Shown here: piece by piece, positions 48,281 to 59,104 of the stretch
Position numbering within the stretch: position 1 is the stretch's first letter
Layout of the letters: each line of letters opens with the position of its first letter
Source: Soehngenia sp.
Lineage (GTDB): Bacteria; Bacillota; Clostridia; Tissierellales; Tissierellaceae
Assembly (NCBI GenBank): GCA_024637045.1
Contig: JAGXFX010000023.1
Span: 1 to 64,000 of the forward strand
Direction of reading: 5' to 3'
DNA length: 64,000 nt
The notes under the pieces: generated by a model
Database searches by the model: none
What the model was told of the DNA's origin: nothing
Seen by the model: the letters and a program-made list of their open reading frames with translations, nothing else
Translations under genes and position numbers: made by a program

Positions 48281-49189
48281 CTATCTGTTTATATAATATT
48301 CGTAGCTTACAACTCCTTCGACCTCAACAAATCCGCCTCTATCATAGATTCTTCTGGCAGCCTTGTTATTCTCATTTACAGATAGAACTGTTCTTTTGAA
48401 GCCTGCTTCATCTGAAAATCTTATAGCTTCCCTTAATAAAATTCCTCCAAGTCCCTTATACTGATAATCTGGAATTACGGACAAGGAACCAATATTCATT
48501 ATTGGTTTGCCTTCGTACTCATCCTTTGTACACCTTACTGTTCCAACAGCCTTTCCATGATGTCTTAATACCATCATTCCTCCTGGGACAAAGTCTTCCT
48601 TGTTGGGATAGGTCATAATCATTTCGGTGCATACAGGAATTTCATTCCCTGTTACAAATGCAAAAGCTTCATTCCTTACTTTGCACCAGTCTTCATAATC
48701 CTTCTCAATTTCAACAGGACTTATTTCATATCCCTCTGGGATTTCCTCCTCAGGAACAGGATTATCATCTCTTACCATAAGGTAAACAAATCTTTCCGCC
48801 TTGAATCCAAGATCCTCCATTCTTCCCATAAGTTCAATATTTGATGACGGCACAAAAATATATACCTTTTCGAGATCAATTGCATGTATAAGTATCCTGT
48901 GAAAGATGATGTCATACACAGCACTGTTGTTCTTCTCAGAGTAAAGAATTCTGAATCTTGCTCTATTGCCTCGTCTGTTGTATTCATCGATTATCAAGGA
49001 TGCAGCTGCAACAACTTCCTTTCCCTCCATATAAAGAAACGTAGGATTCTTAGGACTATACTCAAAGCTGTTCAGGTCCTCTTCATAAAGATATGAATCA
49101 TCCACCTGGTCCCTATGCTTTCTACAAAAATCTGTAAATTCCTTAACATTCTCATTATTTAGCTCAACTATTCTGCCTTCAACTTCCAT
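48281..49189 (-). CDS. Tandem GNAT-domain acetyltransferase
   Basis: A 302-residue protein with an N-terminal degenerate GNAT-like half and a C-terminal active-looking one (IGSLSVIPDYQYKGLGGILLREAIRF, then VNENNKAARRIYDRGGF). The length and duplication match mycothiol-synthase-like dual GNATs. It lies ten bases after another 299-residue GNAT gene; two related genes in tandem suggest local duplication. Substrate unknown. Confidence 0.82.
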   Translation of the reverse strand: MEVEGRIVELNNENVKEFTDFCRKHRDQVDDSYLYEEDLNSFEYSPKNPTFLYMEGKEVVAAASLIIDEYNRRGNRARFRILYSEKNNSAVYDIIFHRILIHAIDLEKVYIFVPSSNIELMGRMEDLGFKAERFVYLMVRDDNPVPEEEIPEGYEISPVEIEKDYEDWCKVRNEAFAFVTGNEIPVCTEMIMTYPNKEDFVPGGMMVLRHHGKAVGTVRCTKDEYEGKPIMNIGSLSVIPDYQYKGLGGILLREAIRFSDEAGFKRTVLSVNENNKAARRIYDRGGFVEVEGVVSYEYYINR

Positions 49190-49198
49190 GGATCCACC

Positions 49199-50098
49199 CT
49201 ACCTTTCCTTTTTAAGTTTATAGTATTCCATTGAATAGTTTTCCTCGAAACCACATGACTGGTACAATCCAAGTGCTGTGTCATTATCAGCGTCAACCTG
49301 CAAGTATATATGGTTTGCATGAAGCTCCTTCAGCTTTTCAACTGATCGGAGCAATAGCTCTCTTCCCAAACCTTTTCCTCTGTTTTCTGGAATTATTCCA
49401 AGTCCGAAAATTCCTCCTTCTCCATTGATTAAGTGAAGATGTACCTTTCCTACAATAATACCCCCCAAAAGAGCTATGTATACATGAAAACCTCTCTTTT
49501 TTTCAAGCTCAATATCCAGAAGCTTCTGAGCTGACAGTTCTTCGCCAAAGTAAATGGAATTTTGCCTCGCTATTTCCAATGCATCATCATTGCAAGCTTG
49601 TCTTAGTATTAAGCCCTTTGAGGATTCTTTGGCATTATCAAATAGACTGTCCGAAAGAACCATTTCATATTCAGTATGGTCATAAAATGAGTCTGTAGTT
49701 TCTATAAAGCTCCTTCCTGCAGCTGACTTTCGGTCGCTCAACAAAAGCATGAAATCTGAAGGTCTCTCCATCCACTCCTTCCGTACAAGTGAGAACAGCT
49801 CCTTAAATACTCCCTTTCTTCTATAGTCAGGGTGTACCATTCCATTTACTTCAAGAGTTCTTCCTCCAAAATCATCAATTCCTATATAACCTACCAACTC
49901 ATCACCATCCCAGCAGGTAAACTCATCTGCTTTTTCTACAGTGCTGTTATCGGGAGCATCTTCCTTTGCAAGTTTATATTCGAGCTCCAACTTTAACCTG
50001 ACTTCATCATGTTTTTTGCATATGTCCTCCAGCTTGGATACGGCTTTATAAAGATCTTTATCCATGACTTTAAATATCTTGAAATGAAAGTCTTCCAT
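49199..50098 (-). CDS. Tandem GNAT-domain acetyltransferase
   Basis: A 299-residue protein with two GNAT halves: VNGMVHPDYRRKGVFKELFSLV in the first and IFGLGIIPENRGKGLGRELLLRSVEKL with LQVDADNDTALGLYQSCGF in the second. GGAGG stands before the ATG. Adjacent to the 302-residue GNAT gene with ten bases between, so probably co-transcribed. Its substrate is unknown. Confidence 0.85.
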   Translation of the reverse strand: MEDFHFKIFKVMDKDLYKAVSKLEDICKKHDEVRLKLELEYKLAKEDAPDNSTVEKADEFTCWDGDELVGYIGIDDFGGRTLEVNGMVHPDYRRKGVFKELFSLVRKEWMERPSDFMLLLSDRKSAAGRSFIETTDSFYDHTEYEMVLSDSLFDNAKESSKGLILRQACNDDALEIARQNSIYFGEELSAQKLLDIELEKKRGFHVYIALLGGIIVGKVHLHLINGEGGIFGLGIIPENRGKGLGRELLLRSVEKLKELHANHIYLQVDADNDTALGLYQSCGFEENYSMEYYKLKKER

Positions 50099-50161
50099 AT
50101 TGTAACTCCTCCAATATATTAGATTTAAACAGGCTGCCAGGGTTTGTCTCCTTGGTATGTT

Positions 50162-50584
50162 CTACAAGTCCTTTTTAAGGTAATAGCGTTTAATGCCGTC
50201 TGAGTATCCTTCTAATACTCCAAAAATCTCATACCCATTTTTCTTGTAGAATCCTGGTGCTTGGAAACTGAAAGTATCAAGATGAATGAATCTGCATTGT
50301 TCTGATATCCCTATTTTCTCAGCTTCCATCATCAGTTTCTGACCATATCCCGCGCTTCTCTCTTCTTCGCTTATCCATAGAAATTCAATAAACAAACAAC
50401 CTCTGTATATTTTCCCCATTAAACCTCCATAAATCTTAACCTCATCTTTTATAATCAGATTTATATCCTTGCTTAAAGCCCCTTGATCTGGTGGTGCAGT
50501 ACTTACATTAAACTGAAATAGTTGATTTTTTATGTACTCGATTTCATCCTCTGTCATTCCTACTTTAACAGAAACCTCTCTCAT
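50162..50584 (-). CDS. Small GNAT acetyltransferase
   Basis: A 140-residue single-domain GNAT: CLFIEFLWISEEERSAGYGQKLMMEAEKI is motif A and LDTFSFQAPGFYKKNGYEIFGVLEGY motif B, the latter resembling small-molecule or antibiotic acetyltransferases. GGAGGG before the ATG. It lies upstream of two further GNAT genes and downstream of the ABC operon on the same strand, separated by 74 bases. Confidence 0.85.
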   Translation of the reverse strand: MREVSVKVGMTEDEIEYIKNQLFQFNVSTAPPDQGALSKDINLIIKDEVKIYGGLMGKIYRGCLFIEFLWISEEERSAGYGQKLMMEAEKIGISEQCRFIHLDTFSFQAPGFYKKNGYEIFGVLEGYSDGIKRYYLKKDL

Positions 50585-50658: not shown

Positions 50659-51450
50659 CTAGTTGGTGTTTATATCCAATATTGATTCAATCAATTTTTT
50701 TGTGTATTCATGCTGAGGGTTGTTAAGTATGGCATCAGCATCTCCCATTTCAACTATCTCGCCGTTTTTCATAACTGCAATACGGTCACACATATGCCTT
50801 ATTACTTTTAAATCATGTGAGATGAAAAGATATGAAAGGTTCAATTCTTCCTTAAGCTTTATCAGAAGATTAAGTACCTGTCCCTGAACTGAAGCATCAA
50901 GGGCTGATACCGGCTCATCACAAACAATCAGCTTGGCTCTTGTTGCAATGGCCCTGCCAATAATGATTCTCTGATTCTGACCACCACTAAGTTGTCCTGG
51001 AAACTTCCATCTTTCTGAGGAAGAGAGATTCACCATCTGAAGAAGTCTTTCAACCTCTTCGTCAAGTTCACTTTCCTTGACAATATTATGTATCTTCAGT
51101 GGCTCCTTTAACAATTCATCCACGGTCATTTGAGGATCCAGTACTGAATTCGTGTATTGAAATATTATTTGAATATCCTTTCTGTGCTTTCGCATTTCAT
51201 CTTCTTTCAAATTGGTTATGTCCTTGCCAAATATTTCAATTCTTCCATTGCTCGGTTCGATAAGCCTGAGCACCAAATTGGCAATTGTGCTCTTGCCTGA
51301 GCCACTTTCGCCTATCAATCCCAATGTCTGGTTTTCTCCGACTTCAAAGGTTATATTCTTGGCAGCATCAACAACTTGTTTCTTTGAAAAAATGCTTTTC
51401 TTGCTAATATAGTGTTTTGAGAGATTGTCAACTTTTAGTATGCTGTTCAA
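50659..51450 (-). CDS. Oligopeptide-type ABC ATPase (OppF/DppF-like)
   Basis: A 263-residue ATPase: Walker A GESGSGKST, signature LSGGQNQRIIIGRA, Walker B LIVCDEPVSALD, switch FISHDLKVI. It lacks the Cys-rich C-terminal extension of its partner. The start is TTG, overlapping the partner's TGA by four bases; GAGGTGA is upstream. It is last in the four-gene transporter operon and forms the heterodimeric motor with the 51447-52421 product. Confidence 0.92.
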   Translation of the reverse strand: MNSILKVDNLSKHYISKKSIFSKKQVVDAAKNITFEVGENQTLGLIGESGSGKSTIANLVLRLIEPSNGRIEIFGKDITNLKEDEMRKHRKDIQIIFQYTNSVLDPQMTVDELLKEPLKIHNIVKESELDEEVERLLQMVNLSSSERWKFPGQLSGGQNQRIIIGRAIATRAKLIVCDEPVSALDASVQGQVLNLLIKLKEELNLSYLFISHDLKVIRHMCDRIAVMKNGEIVEMGDADAILNNPQHEYTKKLIESILDINTN

Positions 51451-52421
51451 GCTTTACTCACCTCATTTTCAAATAAAATACACCTGACTTTTCTATCATT
51501 GATTCTTCTAAACTCAGGTATGCCAGATGTACATGCCGGCTCTCTCAACTTACATCGACTATAAAAAGGGCATTCATCCTTGAACTGATGGGCAGTAGGA
51601 GGAGTTCCTTCGATAAAGTACATGATATCCTCATCCTGGGCCAATGAATTGGAACATTTAATCAATTCCTTCGTATAAGGGTGAAAAGGTGCATTGAAAA
51701 TTTGTTCAATGGTCCCCTCTTCAACAACCAGACCTCCGTACATTATCATCAGCCTGTCGCATAAATACTTGGCTACACCAAAGTCATGAGTAATGATGAT
51801 TACAGACATGTCATTCTTCTTACTGATATCTCTCAATAAGTCAAGAACGGTTTTTTGTAGCGAAGCATCTATTGAGCTGGTTGGTTCGTCAGCAATTAAA
51901 AGCTCTGGATTGCAAAGAATACATTGAGCTATCATAATTCTTTGATTCTGACCACCACTAAGCTGAAATGGATAACTATTATATATTCTTTCTGCTTCAT
52001 CAATTCCAACTTCACCAAGTTTATCAAGTACATACTCTTTTGTATTAGTTAAACTATGAGTTTTTAAGACCTCTCCCAGCTGCTTCCCTATTGTCTTGTA
52101 AGGATTTAAAGCCGCTGAAGAGTTTTGGAAGATATATGAGATTTTATTCCCTCTGATTTTTTTCAATTCTTCCTCAGAGGCTTTTAAAAGATCCTTTCCT
52201 TCAAAGATCACTTCACCAGAATCTATCCTTCCGACAACTTCATCTATTAATCGAATAATTGAGCTTGAAGAGACAGTCTTCCCGCTTCCGGATTCACCGA
52301 GTATACCCACAATTTCTCCCTTGTTTAGCTCGATATCAAAGCCTCTAACCACTTGAATACTACCTTTTTCATAATAAAAGGATACTTTTAAATCGCTGAC
52401 TTCAATAAGCTTGCTTTCCAT
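51447..52421 (-). CDS. Oligopeptide-type ABC ATPase (OppD/DppD-like)
   Basis: A 324-residue ATPase: GESGSGKTVSS Walker A, LSGGQNQRIMIAQ signature, LLIADEPTSSID Walker B, IITHDFGVAKYL switch, and the oligopeptide C-terminal domain with CPFYSRCKLREPAC, which can hold an Fe-S cluster in OppD-type proteins. The ATG at 52421 has GGGG eight bases upstream; an alternative ATG at 52439 is possible. Overlaps the OppF-like gene by four bases and follows the DppC-M28 gene by 42 bases. Confidence 0.92.
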   Translation of the reverse strand: MESKLIEVSDLKVSFYYEKGSIQVVRGFDIELNKGEIVGILGESGSGKTVSSSSIIRLIDEVVGRIDSGEVIFEGKDLLKASEEELKKIRGNKISYIFQNSSAALNPYKTIGKQLGEVLKTHSLTNTKEYVLDKLGEVGIDEAERIYNSYPFQLSGGQNQRIMIAQCILCNPELLIADEPTSSIDASLQKTVLDLLRDISKKNDMSVIIITHDFGVAKYLCDRLMIMYGGLVVEEGTIEQIFNAPFHPYTKELIKCSNSLAQDEDIMYFIEGTPPTAHQFKDECPFYSRCKLREPACTSGIPEFRRINDRKVRCILFENEVSKA

Positions 52422-52463
52422 TTTATCAACCCCTAGCATGTCTACTTGTTCCTTTAATCTTAA

Positions 52464-54725
52464 TTAGTAATTGTTTTTATTGATAACTTCCAGCAGAATG
52501 CTTCCTACTTCTTCGATGCTACGTGTCTCCTCTCCTGACTCTAGTGTATTGATAATAATTGTCGGTATTCCCTTTTCCCAGAACATCGCATTATCAGCTT
52601 GACTATCAGTAAAATAGTATTCATTCCCAATATGTCTGGTCTGAATCTCCCGAATTTCAAGGTTGTTCTTAGTAAATTCCTGCTCAATGTGGTGTCCCAA
52701 GCTCCAGGCAAATGGCCTTGTAATAGGTGCTTGAGCTGCACTGAACTGAATGTAGTCGAAATTCCTTTCAACTAGACCGGAGAGATCAATATATCCTTCT
52801 ACCTTATTGGGACTGTAGGGGAAGTCCTGTGTAATATAATGAACTCCGTGTCGTTTCTCATCAATGGTTCCATCCAGGAACATAAAAATAATTGACCTCT
52901 TGTTCCCCTGTTGTTGGCATAATTGCTCCATTAATTCAAGGTTAAACTCCAATACATCATTTCCGCCATCCTCTGTATAATTGTAGTTCATTCCTATTAC
53001 TATGGCTTCATCTCCAATGTTTTCATCCGTACCTTTTTGAATGCCAACAAGGTTATAACCAGTACTTTCCAATGGCATAACTGAACTGGAAATAGAAATC
53101 GTTGAATCCATGTTTGTTTTCAATAGATCTGAAACCTCTCTTGAAACCATTATTACAGACATCATCTCACTTTCATCGATAATAATACTATTAATCCTTT
53201 CACTCTTTCTAGCTATTAGTAAGACTCCTTTGACTCTCTCATTTTTATTGATTTCCTTAATAAAATAATCTATTGATTGGTCATTGTAGTAATCTTTATC
53301 GATAAGAATAAATTTATCCTTAAATTTACTGTAATCATCTATGCTGAACATATCAATCTCTGTAGCATCATGAATCATTCCTGTATTATTAATATCCCCT
53401 GATGTTACAAATGCAAAATCCTGGTTTGGTATTAAGTCCATCGGTCCGTCCTCTAAACTGATACTAAAGTCTTGATCCTTGAGCATATATGATGGACCTA
53501 TATCATAACTCAAAGCATAACCTTCCTCTTCCAAAGGCTCAATACCCAATTGTACCATTTTATCGGTTATCTGCTGGATTGTTTCATCAGCCTCCTCTGT
53601 CCCAATTATGACTCTGTTTGGCAAATCAATTGAATCTGCAGCCAAACTGATAGTGTACTCCTCTTTATTGACAATGCTAAATATCAGAAATAAACCAATT
53701 AAGGTAACTGTTCCCACCGAGTACTTGATTTTTTCCTTTTTCCCAATCATCCTCCACAGATAAGAAAAATCCAGTGAAATCAGTTTACGGAAAACCAAAG
53801 GCATTCTAGAATCTGGTTTTTGTATTATATTTCTTAGGCCCTCACCAAACAGGTTAAAACCAAGCACACTGATGAAAAATGCCAGTGCGGGAAAAATTAC
53901 AGCCCAAGGCGCGGTACTGATTAAAGTTCTTGAAGTACTGAGCATACTGGCCCACTCAGGTTCAAAACTGATATCTGTATTAATATAAAATCCAGAACCC
54001 TTATCATCAACGATTCCTAAATTTCCGACAAATACCGCAAAAATTCCCAGCTGCATTATCATTGAAAGGTTCCTGGCAATCTCCATGAAAAATAGTATAA
54101 TCAATTCAGGTGCAAGATGAGGAACAACATTTTCCAGTGCAATTTTAGTTCTTCGTTTTCCTATGGCCACCTCGCCCTTAATAAATGGCTGTGCAATAAT
54201 AGCCTCGACTCTCTCCATTATCAAGCTTCCCAATTTAGGCCAGCTAACTGCTGTAAGTATAAGAACGAAGGCGATGATGGAGCTTTGCTTGTCCAGATCT
54301 GCAATAAAATCCAGCTTCAATAAAATGATAGATATCAAGAGAGCAGGTATGGCTGAAAAGATAATGTTAAACTGCTGAATAACCGATTTTGCTAGTCTGT
54401 TCCCAAATCCACCTAGCAAAGCTAATGGAATTGCTATTAGGAATTGTCCGATTGCTATTAATAGACCTAAGGTAATTGTCAGTCTCGTACCATAAATAAT
54501 ATAACTGAGAATATCTCTTCCAAGATCATCACTTCCCAATACAAAGTCACTTCCAGGATTGAATGGTGATCGTTCCACAAATAGCTTGGAATCCTCATGT
54601 ATAAACCGTACAATCTGAATTGTGTAAGGGCTGTTATCGGTAAACATATCTGGAAATATCATTATAAAGAGTATTAATAGAAGAATTATGCCTCCAAGTA
54701 TTAATGGTATATTTGTCTTTTTCAT
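52464..54725 (-). CDS. DppC-type permease fused to C-terminal pseudo-M28 domain
   Basis: A 753-residue fusion. Residues 1-325 are a DppC/OppC permease: TM1 LILGGIILLLILFIMIFP, GSDDLGRDILSYIIYGTR at 64-81, and the ATPase-coupling loop GEVAIGKRRTKIALENVVPHLAP near 184-206. A helix (VGTVTLIGLFLIFSIV, ~337-352) then leads to an extracellular ~400 residues. From about residue 590 these show a degenerate M28 peptidase layout: IVIGMNYNYTEDGGNDVLEFN, SIIFMFLDGTIDEK, EGYIDLSGL and GIPTIIIN. The metal-binding His, Asp and Glu pair of true M28 enzymes are missing. It overlaps the M28-DppB gene by four bases. Normal DppC proteins are ~300 residues. Confidence 0.88.
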   Translation of the reverse strand: MKKTNIPLILGGIILLLILFIMIFPDMFTDNSPYTIQIVRFIHEDSKLFVERSPFNPGSDFVLGSDDLGRDILSYIIYGTRLTITLGLLIAIGQFLIAIPLALLGGFGNRLAKSVIQQFNIIFSAIPALLISIILLKLDFIADLDKQSSIIAFVLILTAVSWPKLGSLIMERVEAIIAQPFIKGEVAIGKRRTKIALENVVPHLAPELIILFFMEIARNLSMIMQLGIFAVFVGNLGIVDDKGSGFYINTDISFEPEWASMLSTSRTLISTAPWAVIFPALAFFISVLGFNLFGEGLRNIIQKPDSRMPLVFRKLISLDFSYLWRMIGKKEKIKYSVGTVTLIGLFLIFSIVNKEEYTISLAADSIDLPNRVIIGTEEADETIQQITDKMVQLGIEPLEEEGYALSYDIGPSYMLKDQDFSISLEDGPMDLIPNQDFAFVTSGDINNTGMIHDATEIDMFSIDDYSKFKDKFILIDKDYYNDQSIDYFIKEINKNERVKGVLLIARKSERINSIIIDESEMMSVIMVSREVSDLLKTNMDSTISISSSVMPLESTGYNLVGIQKGTDENIGDEAIVIGMNYNYTEDGGNDVLEFNLELMEQLCQQQGNKRSIIFMFLDGTIDEKRHGVHYITQDFPYSPNKVEGYIDLSGLVERNFDYIQFSAAQAPITRPFAWSLGHHIEQEFTKNNLEIREIQTRHIGNEYYFTDSQADNAMFWEKGIPTIIINTLESGEETRSIEEVGSILLEVINKNNY

Positions 54726-57160
54726 TGTTTTGCCCCCTTGTTTTTTAAGGGATTTATAAGCCTCGCTAAAAATTGAACTCCCCAGGTGAAGACAATGTAC
54801 ATAAATCCAAGTGTCATGGCAAGGGGAACAAACCTGTAAACATCTTGCCTGTTATAGAAATATAGCAGGTAGTACAGGATGCCACGATAATTAAACAACC
54901 ATTCTACAATAATCATATTTGTTAAAAGCATTGTCATTATGGCTGGCAAAGTATCTACTATCTTAAATACTATAGCCGGAATAAGCTCATAAAATATGGT
55001 TTTCTTCCTTGAAAAACCCTTTGCAATTGCGTTTCTTATATAGTCCTTCCCCAGTTCCTCCTGAACTGTGATAAAGGTTATTCTGGAAATATAGATTGTA
55101 GGTATAATTGACAATGTCAACAATGGTAAAACAAAGCCCTTTAAGTATGTTAAATCCCTCACTGCAGGAAAGTTCACTGCTACAAATGTGTACCCCAAAA
55201 GTGTTAGTAATACGATTAATACATCTGGAATGGAGAAGAAGACCAGAGTCCCAAGTGAACCAAGCTTTGCTTTTCTTGATCTGTATCCTTCATACATCCC
55301 CCTTAGAATCCCAACAATGGTTGAGAATGCCAAGGATGAAGAAATCAGCATTATGCTGAGCTTGCTTGAATCATATATGGTCTCTAAGAGGTTGCCTGTG
55401 ATATACATGTTATAGTCACTTGGACTTAGCAGTGTTCTTAAATATAGTACACTTCTTTTTATTGTAAGATAACCTGAAATATTAGTTGAGATATCATTAT
55501 TGATTATTTTAATATTTGATCCTGGGTCAATACTAGCAAGGATGGTCAACATAAAAACTGCAAAAAACCCAGATATTAAGGCTGAAAAGACTTTTCTTAA
55601 TAGGATGTTTGGTGTAGAGAAATATATGTTTTCTACTGAGTGTCCCATGATTTTCTTGTTGGGATACGCATGGTAGGTCTTCACAATCAAATAGCTTATT
55701 AATGTCCCAAAAATTGTAATCCCTATTAATGCTCTTTCGACTACACTTAAATAATCAAATCCTCTATCCTTGTAAACATCTCTTTTTATGTAGTTTAGAA
55801 ATACCTTTGCTGAATTTTCAAGATGCTCTCTGTCAATATTTTCAATGGTATCTTCATAAGTATTTGCAATATTATTACTATCACTTAGCACTACCGCAGG
55901 TACATTCATATCAATGAATTGATTTATTGCGCTATAACCAGGCAACCCTTCAACAACCTTCATTTCCGAATCCAATCCATAATTAACAATCCTATCCCTT
56001 AAAATTGTACCCTTCATCAATCCAGAAGATACCTTCAAACCCTCCAATGTTTCCTTGCCTATCCCCTCCAGGTGTATTACCGTAGTTCTCTCCAAAGGAT
56101 ATACTGGATTGTTGATGTAATGGCTTGATCCCGAAAGTTGTTGATATTGACCATTCCATCCGGCAAAAACAATTGTGTCATAGGGTAAGCTGTTTTGGCG
56201 TGCTATAACATTGGCTACCTCAAGCATTGTAGCAATTCCAGAAGTGTGGTTTAGAACACCAGGAAAGTATTTGCCATCTGTTCCGGTTCCAACACCATCA
56301 ATATTTGTTGTAACCAACAATATGTTCCCATCAGAAGATTCACCCTCGATCTTTCCCAAAATATTAGCAGTCTCAACAATTGGAAACACGATATCCACCT
56401 TGATATTTACACCGCTTAAAATTTCGAAAGATTCTCCTTCTTCCCCGATATTCTTATCCTCCATGAGTTTTAGAATCTCTCGATGTGCTTGAATGGATAT
56501 GTATCCAACTAATATGGACTCTCCTGTTTTCCCGGAAATACTTATAGACTTTTCAAACTCATAGTTTTGATTCGGATTATAAAAACTGGCATCAGCACTA
56601 CAGATAATACCTTTCCCACCTGATTGTAAAACGTAGTTCACGTGCTTGGGAGCGAGTCTGTTTGCTTCGATTATTACGACTCTGTCTTTAATATACTCAG
56701 GTTCAATCCTTAACAGGTCATTGCCTACAAAAATTAAATCCCCAGAAAAATCAACGCTTCCTCCATTCATGGAAGTCAGCATATTATAATCCTTATACAT
56801 AATAAGTTCTTTTATAAGGTTGCCGTCTTCAGAGCTTATTGTGAATGTAGGATCAGTATCAATATCTGGAATAATTGTTGTAAAGGGTTGAAAATATGTA
56901 TCGTTTACACCAGCTGGTTCAACACCAATTTCCTTGAAATAGTTTTCTATGTATAGGAGCGCTTTCTTGTCACCCTCAGAACCTGATAATCTTCCCTGGT
57001 ACTCCTCTGATGACAGCTCACTGATATGTCCATATATATTATCAGTATTTAAAAGGGACTCATCAAAATCATTTCCTGGCCAGAGTAAAAAGACAGCTAA
57101 TAAACCTGCCGCCGCTAATAATAAATATTTAAAAAGTCTTTTTATCTTATCATGTGCCAT
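54722..57160 (-). CDS. Pseudo-M28 domain fused to DppB-type permease
   Basis: An 812-residue fusion. A helix at 9-29 anchors an extracellular M28-like domain (EEYQGRLSGSEGDKKALLYIENYFKEIGVEP at ~52-82, a PA-like insert at ~110-250, then the core). Key sites are altered: TTNID286-288 for HxD, GVLN304HTSG for the bridging Asp, WNGQ338Y339 for the Glu pair, Glu365 for the third ligand (where Asp is usual) and TYE436DTIENID for the final His. So proteolysis is unlikely. After a second helix (~476-493) a DppB permease follows, with coupling loop ELGKDYIRNAIAKGFSRKKTIFYELIPA at 702-729. ATG at 57160 has AAGGGTGG upstream. First gene of the operon; no solute-binding protein is encoded. Confidence 0.88.
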   Translation of the reverse strand: MAHDKIKRLFKYLLLAAAGLLAVFLLWPGNDFDESLLNTDNIYGHISELSSEEYQGRLSGSEGDKKALLYIENYFKEIGVEPAGVNDTYFQPFTTIIPDIDTDPTFTISSEDGNLIKELIMYKDYNMLTSMNGGSVDFSGDLIFVGNDLLRIEPEYIKDRVVIIEANRLAPKHVNYVLQSGGKGIICSADASFYNPNQNYEFEKSISISGKTGESILVGYISIQAHREILKLMEDKNIGEEGESFEILSGVNIKVDIVFPIVETANILGKIEGESSDGNILLVTTNIDGVGTGTDGKYFPGVLNHTSGIATMLEVANVIARQNSLPYDTIVFAGWNGQYQQLSGSSHYINNPVYPLERTTVIHLEGIGKETLEGLKVSSGLMKGTILRDRIVNYGLDSEMKVVEGLPGYSAINQFIDMNVPAVVLSDSNNIANTYEDTIENIDREHLENSAKVFLNYIKRDVYKDRGFDYLSVVERALIGITIFGTLISYLIVKTYHAYPNKKIMGHSVENIYFSTPNILLRKVFSALISGFFAVFMLTILASIDPGSNIKIINNDISTNISGYLTIKRSVLYLRTLLSPSDYNMYITGNLLETIYDSSKLSIMLISSSLAFSTIVGILRGMYEGYRSRKAKLGSLGTLVFFSIPDVLIVLLTLLGYTFVAVNFPAVRDLTYLKGFVLPLLTLSIIPTIYISRITFITVQEELGKDYIRNAIAKGFSRKKTIFYELIPAIVFKIVDTLPAIMTMLLTNMIIVEWLFNYRGILYYLLYFYNRQDVYRFVPLAMTLGFMYIVFTWGVQFLARLINPLKNKGAKQ

Positions 57161-57180
57161 TATATCCACCCTTTGCCTAT

Positions 57181-57195
57181 TATTCGAAAGTACTA
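57181..57195 (+). repeat. 15-bp direct repeat, copy 1
   Basis: TATTCGAAAGTACTA occurs here, just upstream of the ABC operon start, and again exactly at 59633-59647 over the 3' end of the ASCH-like gene. The bases after it are also similar (TTTGA...TATC-TTGATA). The copies span about 2.45 kb holding three minus-strand genes. Confidence 0.7.
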
Positions 57196-57299
57196 GTTTG
57201 AAGGTATCCTTGATACTATTGAACTATCACAATGTTGAATATATGAATGATAATCAAAGATTTAGATGAAATGCATCAAGTTAAGTTTGTTTAATATCC

Positions 57300-58459
57300 T
57301 TATCTGTATTTGCTGAAATTAAGTCGACCCACTATTCCCGCCAAGAAATTTACTTTCTTTAGCTCCACTGCATTATAGACACATAATTCATGGCAGCACA
57401 TGCATTCAATACAAACCGTATAATCAATTTGCTTAGTTTCAGGATTGATTGCCTTTACAGGGCAACTTTCTACACATACATTGCAATTTCTACACTTTTT
57501 TTGATTAACTTTTGGTACTGTTTTAAAGAAATCAATGACCTTAATAAGTATTTTGTAATTTGATTTTTTACTGCTCTTATAACGCTTCGGTAATTTATAA
57601 TCCGTGAATTTCGGAATACTTTTATAATCACCACCAATAGTTATATTCTCCAGTCTACTTTCTCCTACCCCCCTAGCTATGGCTGCACCTAGAATAGGCA
57701 CATCTCCTATTTCCATACCCATCATCTTAATGGCTACAGCATCTAATGCTAAGGGATCTGTACTCAAAAGAATTTTATTTCCTTGATAGTATCACCTGCT
57801 GTTGGGCCTTCACCCTGCATAGCAAGAATACCATCCATAATATGAAGTTGAAATTCGGCTGACTGATGAATATCGGCTAGAATTTCCCCAAATTTTTCAG
57901 GATTGGGAGCCATTTTATGATATTTTGCCTTTGCTAAGCCGGGAATGCATCCAAATACATTTTTTACAGCTCCTGTATAAATCCCCGCTGAGTGTGTCTT
58001 TAATTTTGGTAGGTTTATAACTACATCAGCATCGAAAATGGGTCTTGCAAGAAACATCTTTTCACCATTTTCGCTATTCGGTGTAACTTCAACAACACCT
58101 TCCCTATCAAAGTTTTTAACAAAAGCCCCTTCTTCTTGAGCTACTTTTTCGTAGCCTGCTACCTTGAAGCTTTCTGCAGTAGGTGCTATCCCTGCAATAG
58201 CACCGCCTGAACTATCTCCTATCCACACTTCACATCCTCGCTGTTTCAAAATTCTTACCATTGCACGGGTAAATTCAGAATGAGTTACAGCAGCTGATTC
58301 AGATGTTTTTGGACCAATTAGATTTACCTTAAGTAAAACCTTATCCTTTGGATGGACGAACAAATCCCAGCCTCCTAGGCTTTCTATTCCTTCGTTGATT
58401 TTTATCATCAAACCGTTCAATTCATATTCTTTACACTCTTGAATAGCTACGTTGACCAC
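57300..58459 (-). pseudogene. DUF362 ferredoxin-type protein, frameshifted
   Basis: Two adjoining frames together give one complete DUF362 protein. The first (GTG at 58459 to 57764) has VLLKVNLIGPKTSESAAVTHSEF, VWIGDSSGG, LPKLKTHSAGIYTGAVKNVFG, LHIMDGILAMQGEGPTAGDT; the second (57767-57300) continues STDPLALDAVAIKMMG and ends with two [4Fe-4S] motifs, CRNCNVCVESCPVKAI and CIECMCCHELCVYNAV. The frame breaks near 57780, consistent with loss of one base in AAGG(G)AAAT. A single change would restore a ~385-residue protein. It could be a real mutation or a sequencing error; TGA there is not selenocysteine because the downstream frame differs. Confidence 0.8.
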
Positions 58460-58474
58460 TTTGATTCAGCTCCT

Positions 58475-59104
58475 TTACTTAAAACTCACAACCCTTGCCA
58501 CAACCCTGGCAAGAGATGCCTCTGCTCTAATTTTCAAAGGCAATGCAATAACCTCAAATTTCTCTATATTTACAAGAAGTCCAAGATTTCTTAGGTTTTC
58601 AATTATAAGAATATCATTTCCCAAAAGCTTCTTATGAATGCTAAAAGGATACTGATCCGGTGATGGCAAATCCATTCCAAGCATTTTTATCTTTTTATCA
58701 ATAAATAAATCAGCCAACTCTTCCTCAACCACTGGATGATTCTTGAAATACTCGGCACTACCAAATTTATTCTCAAAACCAGTGTAAAGAAGGATTATGC
58801 TGCTTTCTTCTACTATGTCCCAATACTCATCCTTGATCCCAATAGCATCTTGATTCCTTACATCCAGCAAACAACCTTTTCCGAAAAATTTATCAGCAGG
58901 ATAATCACTTATTACAACATTGCTTTTCATAATGTGGCTGGCAACATCAATGTGAGTCCCAACATGCATTCCTGTTTCCAATCTAGTATCATTATACTTA
59001 TCCTTATCAAGGAATCTGTTTTGGTATAGCTTCAAATCATCATCACCAGGATATGCGCTTATTCCCGCTTCAATGGTATAGCTTAAATCAACGAATTCAG
59101 TCAT
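58475..59104 (-). CDS. Cyclase-family (kynurenine formamidase-like) metal hydrolase
   Basis: A 209-residue protein of the cyclase/KynB family. The metal motif reads HVGTHIDVASHIM against the usual HxGTHxDxPxH, with Ala for Pro. FVDLSYTIEAGISAYPGDD and LGMDLPSPDQYPFSIHKKLLGNDILIIENL are also typical. Such enzymes hydrolyse cyclic amides, formamides or isatin; substrate unknown. It is 15 bases upstream of the DUF362 gene and likely co-transcribed. Promoter region carries the 59191 repeat. Confidence 0.88.
   Translation of the reverse strand: MTEFVDLSYTIEAGISAYPGDDDLKLYQNRFLDKDKYNDTRLETGMHVGTHIDVASHIMKSNVVISDYPADKFFGKGCLLDVRNQDAIGIKDEYWDIVEESSIILLYTGFENKFGSAEYFKNHPVVEEELADLFIDKKIKMLGMDLPSPDQYPFSIHKKLLGNDILIIENLRNLGLLVNIEKFEVIALPLKIRAEASLARVVARVVSFK

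Follow-up and report, generated by a model that had tools for sequence, protein, structure and literature searches.

The tethered domains of the ATP-binding cassette (ABC) importers GlnPQ and OpuA are substrate-binding protein (SBP) domains, carried on importer families other than the Dpp/Opp type. In both systems a receptor-like domain is tethered to the permease outside the membrane (GlnPQ, PMC8025302; OpuA, PMC11065425). The DppABCDF/OppABCDF importers, represented by E. coli and M. tuberculosis structures, work with an SBP, their permeases measure about 300 aa, and a scoop of DppB reaches into the cleft of the SBP; in E. coli the scoop (residues 32-62 region) enters the cleft of DppA, and DppBCDF alone is inactive, DppA and ATP being required (PMC12136057). 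This analysis concerns a four-gene operon on the minus strand (50659-57160) of a 64,000-nucleotide stretch of Soehngenia sp. DNA, referred to as the window (contig JAGXFX010000023.1, positions 1 to 64,000). The operon resembles DppABCDF/OppABCDF in its DppB- and DppC-type permeases and its OppD- and OppF-type ATPases; it differs in lacking a linked SBP and a recognisable scoop region and in carrying ectodomains related to M28 peptidases. Since E. coli DppBCDF is inactive alone, something must replace the SBP here. Unlike the domains of GlnPQ and OpuA, the tethered domains have an M28-like fold and not an SBP fold, as judged from profiles and from Foldseek searches of low-confidence models, and they are placed on a Dpp/Opp-type translocator, at the N-terminal end of one subunit and the C-terminal end of the other. 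We give an even chance to the reading that the system is a Dpp/Opp-type (type I) ABC importer in which dead M28 domains act as a built-in receptor replacing the free SBP.

The open reading frames (ORFs) and Pfam matches agreed with a previous sequence-only reading of the window, in which four coupled genes encoded M28-DppB (812 aa), DppC-M28 (753 aa), OppD and OppF (Table 1). The preferred start of the M28-DppB gene is the ATG at 57160, preceded directly by AAAGGGTGG; the ORF list gives an 815-aa protein from an upstream GTG, and the 812- and 815-aa numberings differ accordingly. The two fusion genes overlap by 4 nt (ATGA), a 24-nt gap separates the DppC-M28 gene from the OppD gene, and the OppD and OppF genes again overlap by 4 nt (TTGA). 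M28-DppB matched the Pfam families Peptidase_M28 (E = 2.6e-14) and BPD_transp_1 (E = 4.7e-12), DppC-M28 matched BPD_transp_1 barely above the cut-off (E = 2.6e-6), and each ATPase matched ABC_tran and oligo_HPY, the latter over 29 of 65 positions in OppF. One DppB-type and one DppC-type BPD_transp_1 permease is the arrangement of Dpp/Opp-type ABC importers; among solved structures the permease parts matched DppB and DppC chains best, and with two permeases and two ATPases the translocator parts are complete within the four-gene unit. On inspection by eye, an EAA-type coupling loop is retained in the two permeases, and Walker A, LSGGQ and Walker B motifs in the two ATPases. Hydropathy gave the order N-terminal anchor, M28 domain, extra helix (474-492) and DppB in the first fusion, and DppC, extra helix (335-353) and M28 domain in the second; with the topology usual for such permeases, both ectodomains are predicted to lie outside the membrane. 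No Rfam RNA was found at 56500-58500, and a promoter scan gave scores near background (37 versus 31.5).

Searches with hidden Markov models bore out both fusions: Peptidase_M28 was over the cut-off in the first, BPD_transp_1 in both, and the second M28 domain was recognised by hhalign. The M28-DppB domain aligned with free M28 relatives of the same order at E = 1.3e-65. The C-terminal part of DppC-M28 matched no Pfam family, and a PDB profile search with its pseudo-M28 domain returned nothing up to E = 1; hhalign aligned this domain with free M28s (E = 3e-15) and with the C-terminal domains of single fusions, in which a free DppB accompanies DppC-M28 (E = 3.6e-22), and the single-fusion domains with free M28s (E = 1.6e-40). 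The AlphaFold models were of low confidence, and therefore only their fold matches were used. Transferrin receptor 1 was the top Foldseek match of M28-DppB and the top profile match of its M28 domain, and the DppC-M28 model, itself of low confidence, matched the M28 aminopeptidase 2ek8 (E = 5.8e-15). Transferrin receptor 1, like nicastrin and nicalin, reuses the M28 and PA fold without peptidase activity; unlike the fusion system, these proteins are eukaryotic and stand outside ABC transporters. The nearest known kinds are chimeras of substrate-binding domain and permease, and eukaryotic dead M28 receptors.

Free M28 aminopeptidases (2ek8, YwaD 6hc6, Vibrio aminopeptidase 1amp) belong to the same domain family as the fused domains, but have intact zinc ligands and no transporter. 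The active-site columns could be fixed, because the profile of the free M28 relatives aligned with solved zinc aminopeptidases over the ligand motifs. In M28-DppB (812-aa numbering) the ligand His and Asp are replaced by N286 and N304, the Glu pair by Q338/Y339 and the third-ligand Asp by E365, as had been proposed from the sequence alone, and the Asp of the HxD motif is kept (D288); the last His, previously placed at E436, aligns with N433, three residues away. The second fusion had been called equally degenerate; its ligands are indeed lost, but it is more degenerate than the first (N580/N582, T620/I621, S649), and its last-His position has no aligned residue. The full ligand set was present in none of 46 fused-type M28 domains and in all 11 free relatives; the 46 include two M28 frames separate from the adjoining DppC frame (L120, L131), a contig-end fragment in which a fusion is not visible (L113_7255) and a small number of rows truncated at the ends of contigs. 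At the catalytic-base position, the DppB-fused domains have Q (7/8, with E in the distant L121), the double-fusion DppC domains T (7/8, with S in L121) and the single-fusion rows S, T or N (27/30), with E in two and D in one. In seven of the eight domain comparisons the dN/dS calculation ended in a log error of the kind that saturated synonymous sites produce.

Of 30 ordinary oligo_HPY (Opp) loci, 25 have an SBP_bac_5 match within 10 kb, whereas none of the seven double-fusion loci of the same seven genomes does (Fisher p = 8e-5, the loci not being strictly independent). Five SBP-less ordinary Opp loci were kept in this control (G046 C165 and C134; G059 C63, C152 and C156), and the linkage result is limited by the shortness of some fusion contigs (L032, 10.2 kb; L121, 8.5 kb). 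The 121.8-kb contig that holds the window gave no SBP_bac_5 match; other SBP families were not searched. The earlier claim that no SBP is encoded thus held for the locus, for the seven double-fusion loci and for the contig, and neither of the observations that had been set against a receptor role, a linked SBP in most genomes or fused homologues with intact M28 ligands, was seen. Among the single-fusion loci, several of them under 10 kb, a scan with a profile built from the window genome's four SBPs found an SBP near 1 of 28 (L050, 4.3 kb away), which is probably not a dedicated partner, since its place matches that of a widespread lone SBP (G048:C14). Among the matches listed, further SBPs on fusion contigs lay about 16 kb (G112:C18) and about 31 kb (G596:C16) from DppC-M28. 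Enlarged SBPs were also encountered: another Opp locus of the double-fusion genome G001 (L148:4601-9840, minus strand) encodes an SBP of 781 aa and an enlarged DppC of 591 aa, and G059, G124 and G176 likewise have long SBP frames (about 790-845 aa).

The Pfam family PF19300 represents the N-terminal region of DppB, which by our own mapping includes the SBP-docking scoop; in an ordinary DppB it matches residues 8-77. It was recognised in 18 of 20 ordinary DppB proteins and in none of 29 fusion-associated ones (p = 2e-11, again for loci not strictly independent). The sets comprised 20 of 24 ordinary proteins (L075, L078, L081 and L134 omitted) and 29 of 30 fusion-associated proteins (the cut-off L048 omitted), same-gene duplicates being counted once. 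Judged from their N-terminal sequences, the two ordinary exceptions are probably the outgroup proteins L135 and L136.

DppC-M28 was found in at least 17 of 249 genomes of the order and at least 14 of 391 genomes sampled from the class, where G138 has the split L120 type and where, as in the order figure, the window genome is counted. These counts are lower bounds, because the candidates scored per genome were limited to four in the order survey and two in the class and phylum surveys. A phylum sample of 398 genomes added just two genomes at E ≤ 1e-45, both with matches confined to the DppC part, and plasmid records gave no match. M28-DppB occurred in eight genomes, all of which also carry DppC-M28: the window genome, L034 (G001), L047 (G046), L048/L049 (G059, where the gene is split over two contig ends), L031 (G176), L032 (G124), L033 and the very divergent L121 (G126). 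G001, G124 and G176 were taken to be L034, L032 and L031, respectively, on the strength of coordinates that are identical or mirrored; the named double-fusion records are a Gudongella sp. metagenome-assembled genome (MAG), two Clostridia MAGs and a Vallitaleaceae MAG. The single-fusion family is wider than the double fusion, and PF19300 was likewise not recognised in its DppB partners. In one single-fusion family (f39; L111, L112, L116, L120) the operons lie, in conserved order, between pheS/pheT-like genes and a HlyD-like, ABC ATPase and FtsX-like set, these neighbour names being our assumption. Among the matches listed from open-access titles and abstract beginnings, outside which most subscription literature lies, there was no publication on an M28 domain fused to an ABC permease.

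In a tree of 56 M28 rows, from which L113_7255 had been dropped beforehand, the DppB-fused domains and the free active M28s fell on one side of a 100/100 branch. The double-fusion DppC domains (100/100) fell outside it, with some of the single fusions as weakly supported neighbours (81/80). The DppC tree placed every fused DppC in a single clade (81/88), within which seven of eight double-fusion rows grouped at 100/99 and the long-branched L121 stood apart; three apparently plain rows in this clade come from genes that are either split or cut off (L120, L130, L131). Both trees were midpoint-rooted, and the sample of ordinary DppCs was small. The placement of the DppB-fused domains suggests that they were captured separately from free M28 peptidases. 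We set aside the idea that a single M28 domain was duplicated onto the two permeases, the DppB domains grouping with free M28s and the DppC domains, weakly, with part of the single fusions; the pair described as mirror images, placed at opposite ends, does not look like one duplicated domain. The single clade of fused DppCs, together with the position of the DppB domains among free M28s, points to repeated domain use on this transporter, and the simplest reading would be an older DppC-M28 fusion followed by a separate M28 capture by DppB, with catalysis lost each time. A DppC from outside the class (L151:7434-8786, minus strand) carries another C-terminal extension of about 145 aa and matches only BPD_transp_1 in Pfam, so the gain of unlike ectodomains by DppC may be a repeated event.

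In the receptor reading, the dead M28 domains, tethered outside the membrane by the extra helix, would bind substrate and hand it to the pore, as do the tethered substrate-binding domains of GlnPQ and OpuA; in the double-fusion subclade the separately captured second domain, added to DppB, would give a two-domain ectodomain. M28 enzymes bind the N-termini of peptides, and the substrate would therefore most likely be a peptide or peptide-like. A broader form of this reading, to which we give slightly less than an even chance, is that a branch of importers gave up both SBP and scoop and recruited pseudo-peptidases, at least twice independently, as built-in receptors, the double form holding two unlike dead peptidases over the pore. 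Several observations weigh against a receptor role. The models of the two fusions were poor (pLDDT 56.2 and 54.1). The former active-site segments were only weakly more conserved than random segments, with draws as high in 302 (DppB), 465 (double-fusion DppC) and 488 (single-fusion) of 5000 and in 0 of 5000 for the free enzymes (domains used: 6/8, 7/8, 12/30 and 11/11, respectively), and the domains may accordingly bind a ligand at another place or bind none. Even so, the 12-residue segment of highest conservation has, in each of the two window-type domains, the former catalytic base as its last residue; this is also a core strand. The outgroup DppBs L135 and L136 (L150, L152) appear scoop-less while also being without an M28 domain, and scoop loss may therefore be older than the fusion.

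Another explanation, which we consider unlikely, is that a free SBP encoded elsewhere still delivers the substrate, with the dead M28 domains serving as docking platforms, gates or lids. SBP_bac_5 genes were present in all 30 fusion genomes searched, and the host genome has one SBP without an adjoining transporter (L147); a partner in trans would, however, face a DppB in which no scoop region was recognised, and ordinary Opp loci mostly retain an SBP of their own. The lone SBP does not follow the fusion, since it was found (E ≤ 1e-60) mostly in relatives without it (50 of 60 relatives, 48 of these lacking M28-DppB) and was missed in the double-fusion genomes G046 and G059. It is no more probable that the complex is a sensing or mechanical ABC machine, directed for instance at wall or signal peptides or an envelope partner, with pseudo-peptidases as sensors and no net import. 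Dead enzyme domains often turn into sensors; two DppC-M28 genes occur without a DppB or OppD/OppF match within 14 kb (L052, L126), which also weighs against the receptor reading; the f39 operons adjoin the set assumed to be HlyD/ABC/FtsX-like; and a 16-kb stretch (L150:7029-8842, plus strand) holds a scoop-less DppB/DppC pair with no SBP match and no directly adjoining OppD/OppF-like gene, one weak ATPase match lying 1.8 kb away. On contigs that show the whole operon, however, the double-fusion unit always keeps both ATPases and importer-type permeases, and no neighbour family is common to three or more double-fusion loci.

That the fused domains are active peptidases working through different residues, the complex both cutting and importing peptides, is very improbable. 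The HxD Asp and single ligands do persist in some members (for example, L122 keeps the first His, L116 the last His, and the DppB domain of L121 the bridging Asp together with a Glu), and a free M28 gene with intact ligands directly adjoins one DppC-M28 gene (L114:2249-3724, minus strand), but activity was rejected on the loss of the full ligand set in every fused-type domain compared and on the catalytic base being replaced in most of them. There is next to no chance that the fusion reflects faulty assembly or gene calling, or decaying genes. Although the window genome is a 27-contig assembly and the G059 gene is cut over two contig ends, the double fusion recurs in eight independent genomes and different contexts, its frames are open, and each domain shows 56-83% protein identity within the pairs compared; the independent genomes refute this explanation.

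Table 1. Features of the fusion operon in the window.
Feature	Position	Strand	Remarks
M28-DppB fusion, 812 aa	54722..57160	-	anchor transmembrane helix at N-terminal end, PA and M28 pseudopeptidase, extra transmembrane helix, DppB-type permease
Pseudo-M28 domain of M28-DppB	55766..57073	-	aa 33-468 (815-aa numbering); Pfam M28, hhalign; ligands lost
DppB-type permease part of M28-DppB	54725..55669	-	no PF19300 (scoop region) match
DppC-M28 fusion, 753 aa	52464..54725	-	DppC-type permease, extra transmembrane helix (about 335-353), then pseudo-M28
Pseudo-M28 domain of DppC-M28	52467..53645	-	aa 361-753; hhalign and Foldseek to 2ek8; no Pfam match
OppD-type ATPase, 330 aa	51447..52439	-	oligo_HPY C-terminal region
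OppF-type ATPase, 263 aa	50659..51450	-	TTG start; oligo_HPY match short

Two ORFs with a 4-nt overlap at 57300-58459 (minus strand) encode a DUF362 protein and a ferredoxin part, and may represent one frameshifted DUF362-ferredoxin gene. Just downstream of the operon, at 48281-50584 (minus strand), lie two GNAT acetyltransferase ORFs in tandem with a third recognised by eye; the genus mate L034 has a counterpart of each of the three, and their order is the same. Beyond this genus mate, no neighbouring genes were common to the double-fusion loci except in the pair L031 and L048, which have in common an AraC-like regulator, recognised by eye, and a DUF2202 lipoprotein, for which the L031 protein was scanned. 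A further type of M28 protein, some 990-1050 aa in length, in which the M28 domain is N-terminal and the C-terminal half is long, was found at L035, L036, L038, L039, L040, L042, L044 and L045; the M28 ligands were intact in the six compared, and the C-terminal half of L035 had no Pfam match.

If the receptor reading is true, the receptor of a type I importer would be replaceable, and this would be a naturally SBP-less branch in which another fold is mounted on the permease. Such a branch would be notable because ABC peptide importers are described as requiring a free SBP (PMC12136057). Dead peptidases would then serve as transport receptors in bacteria, and the four-gene unit would offer a ready complex for structural work.

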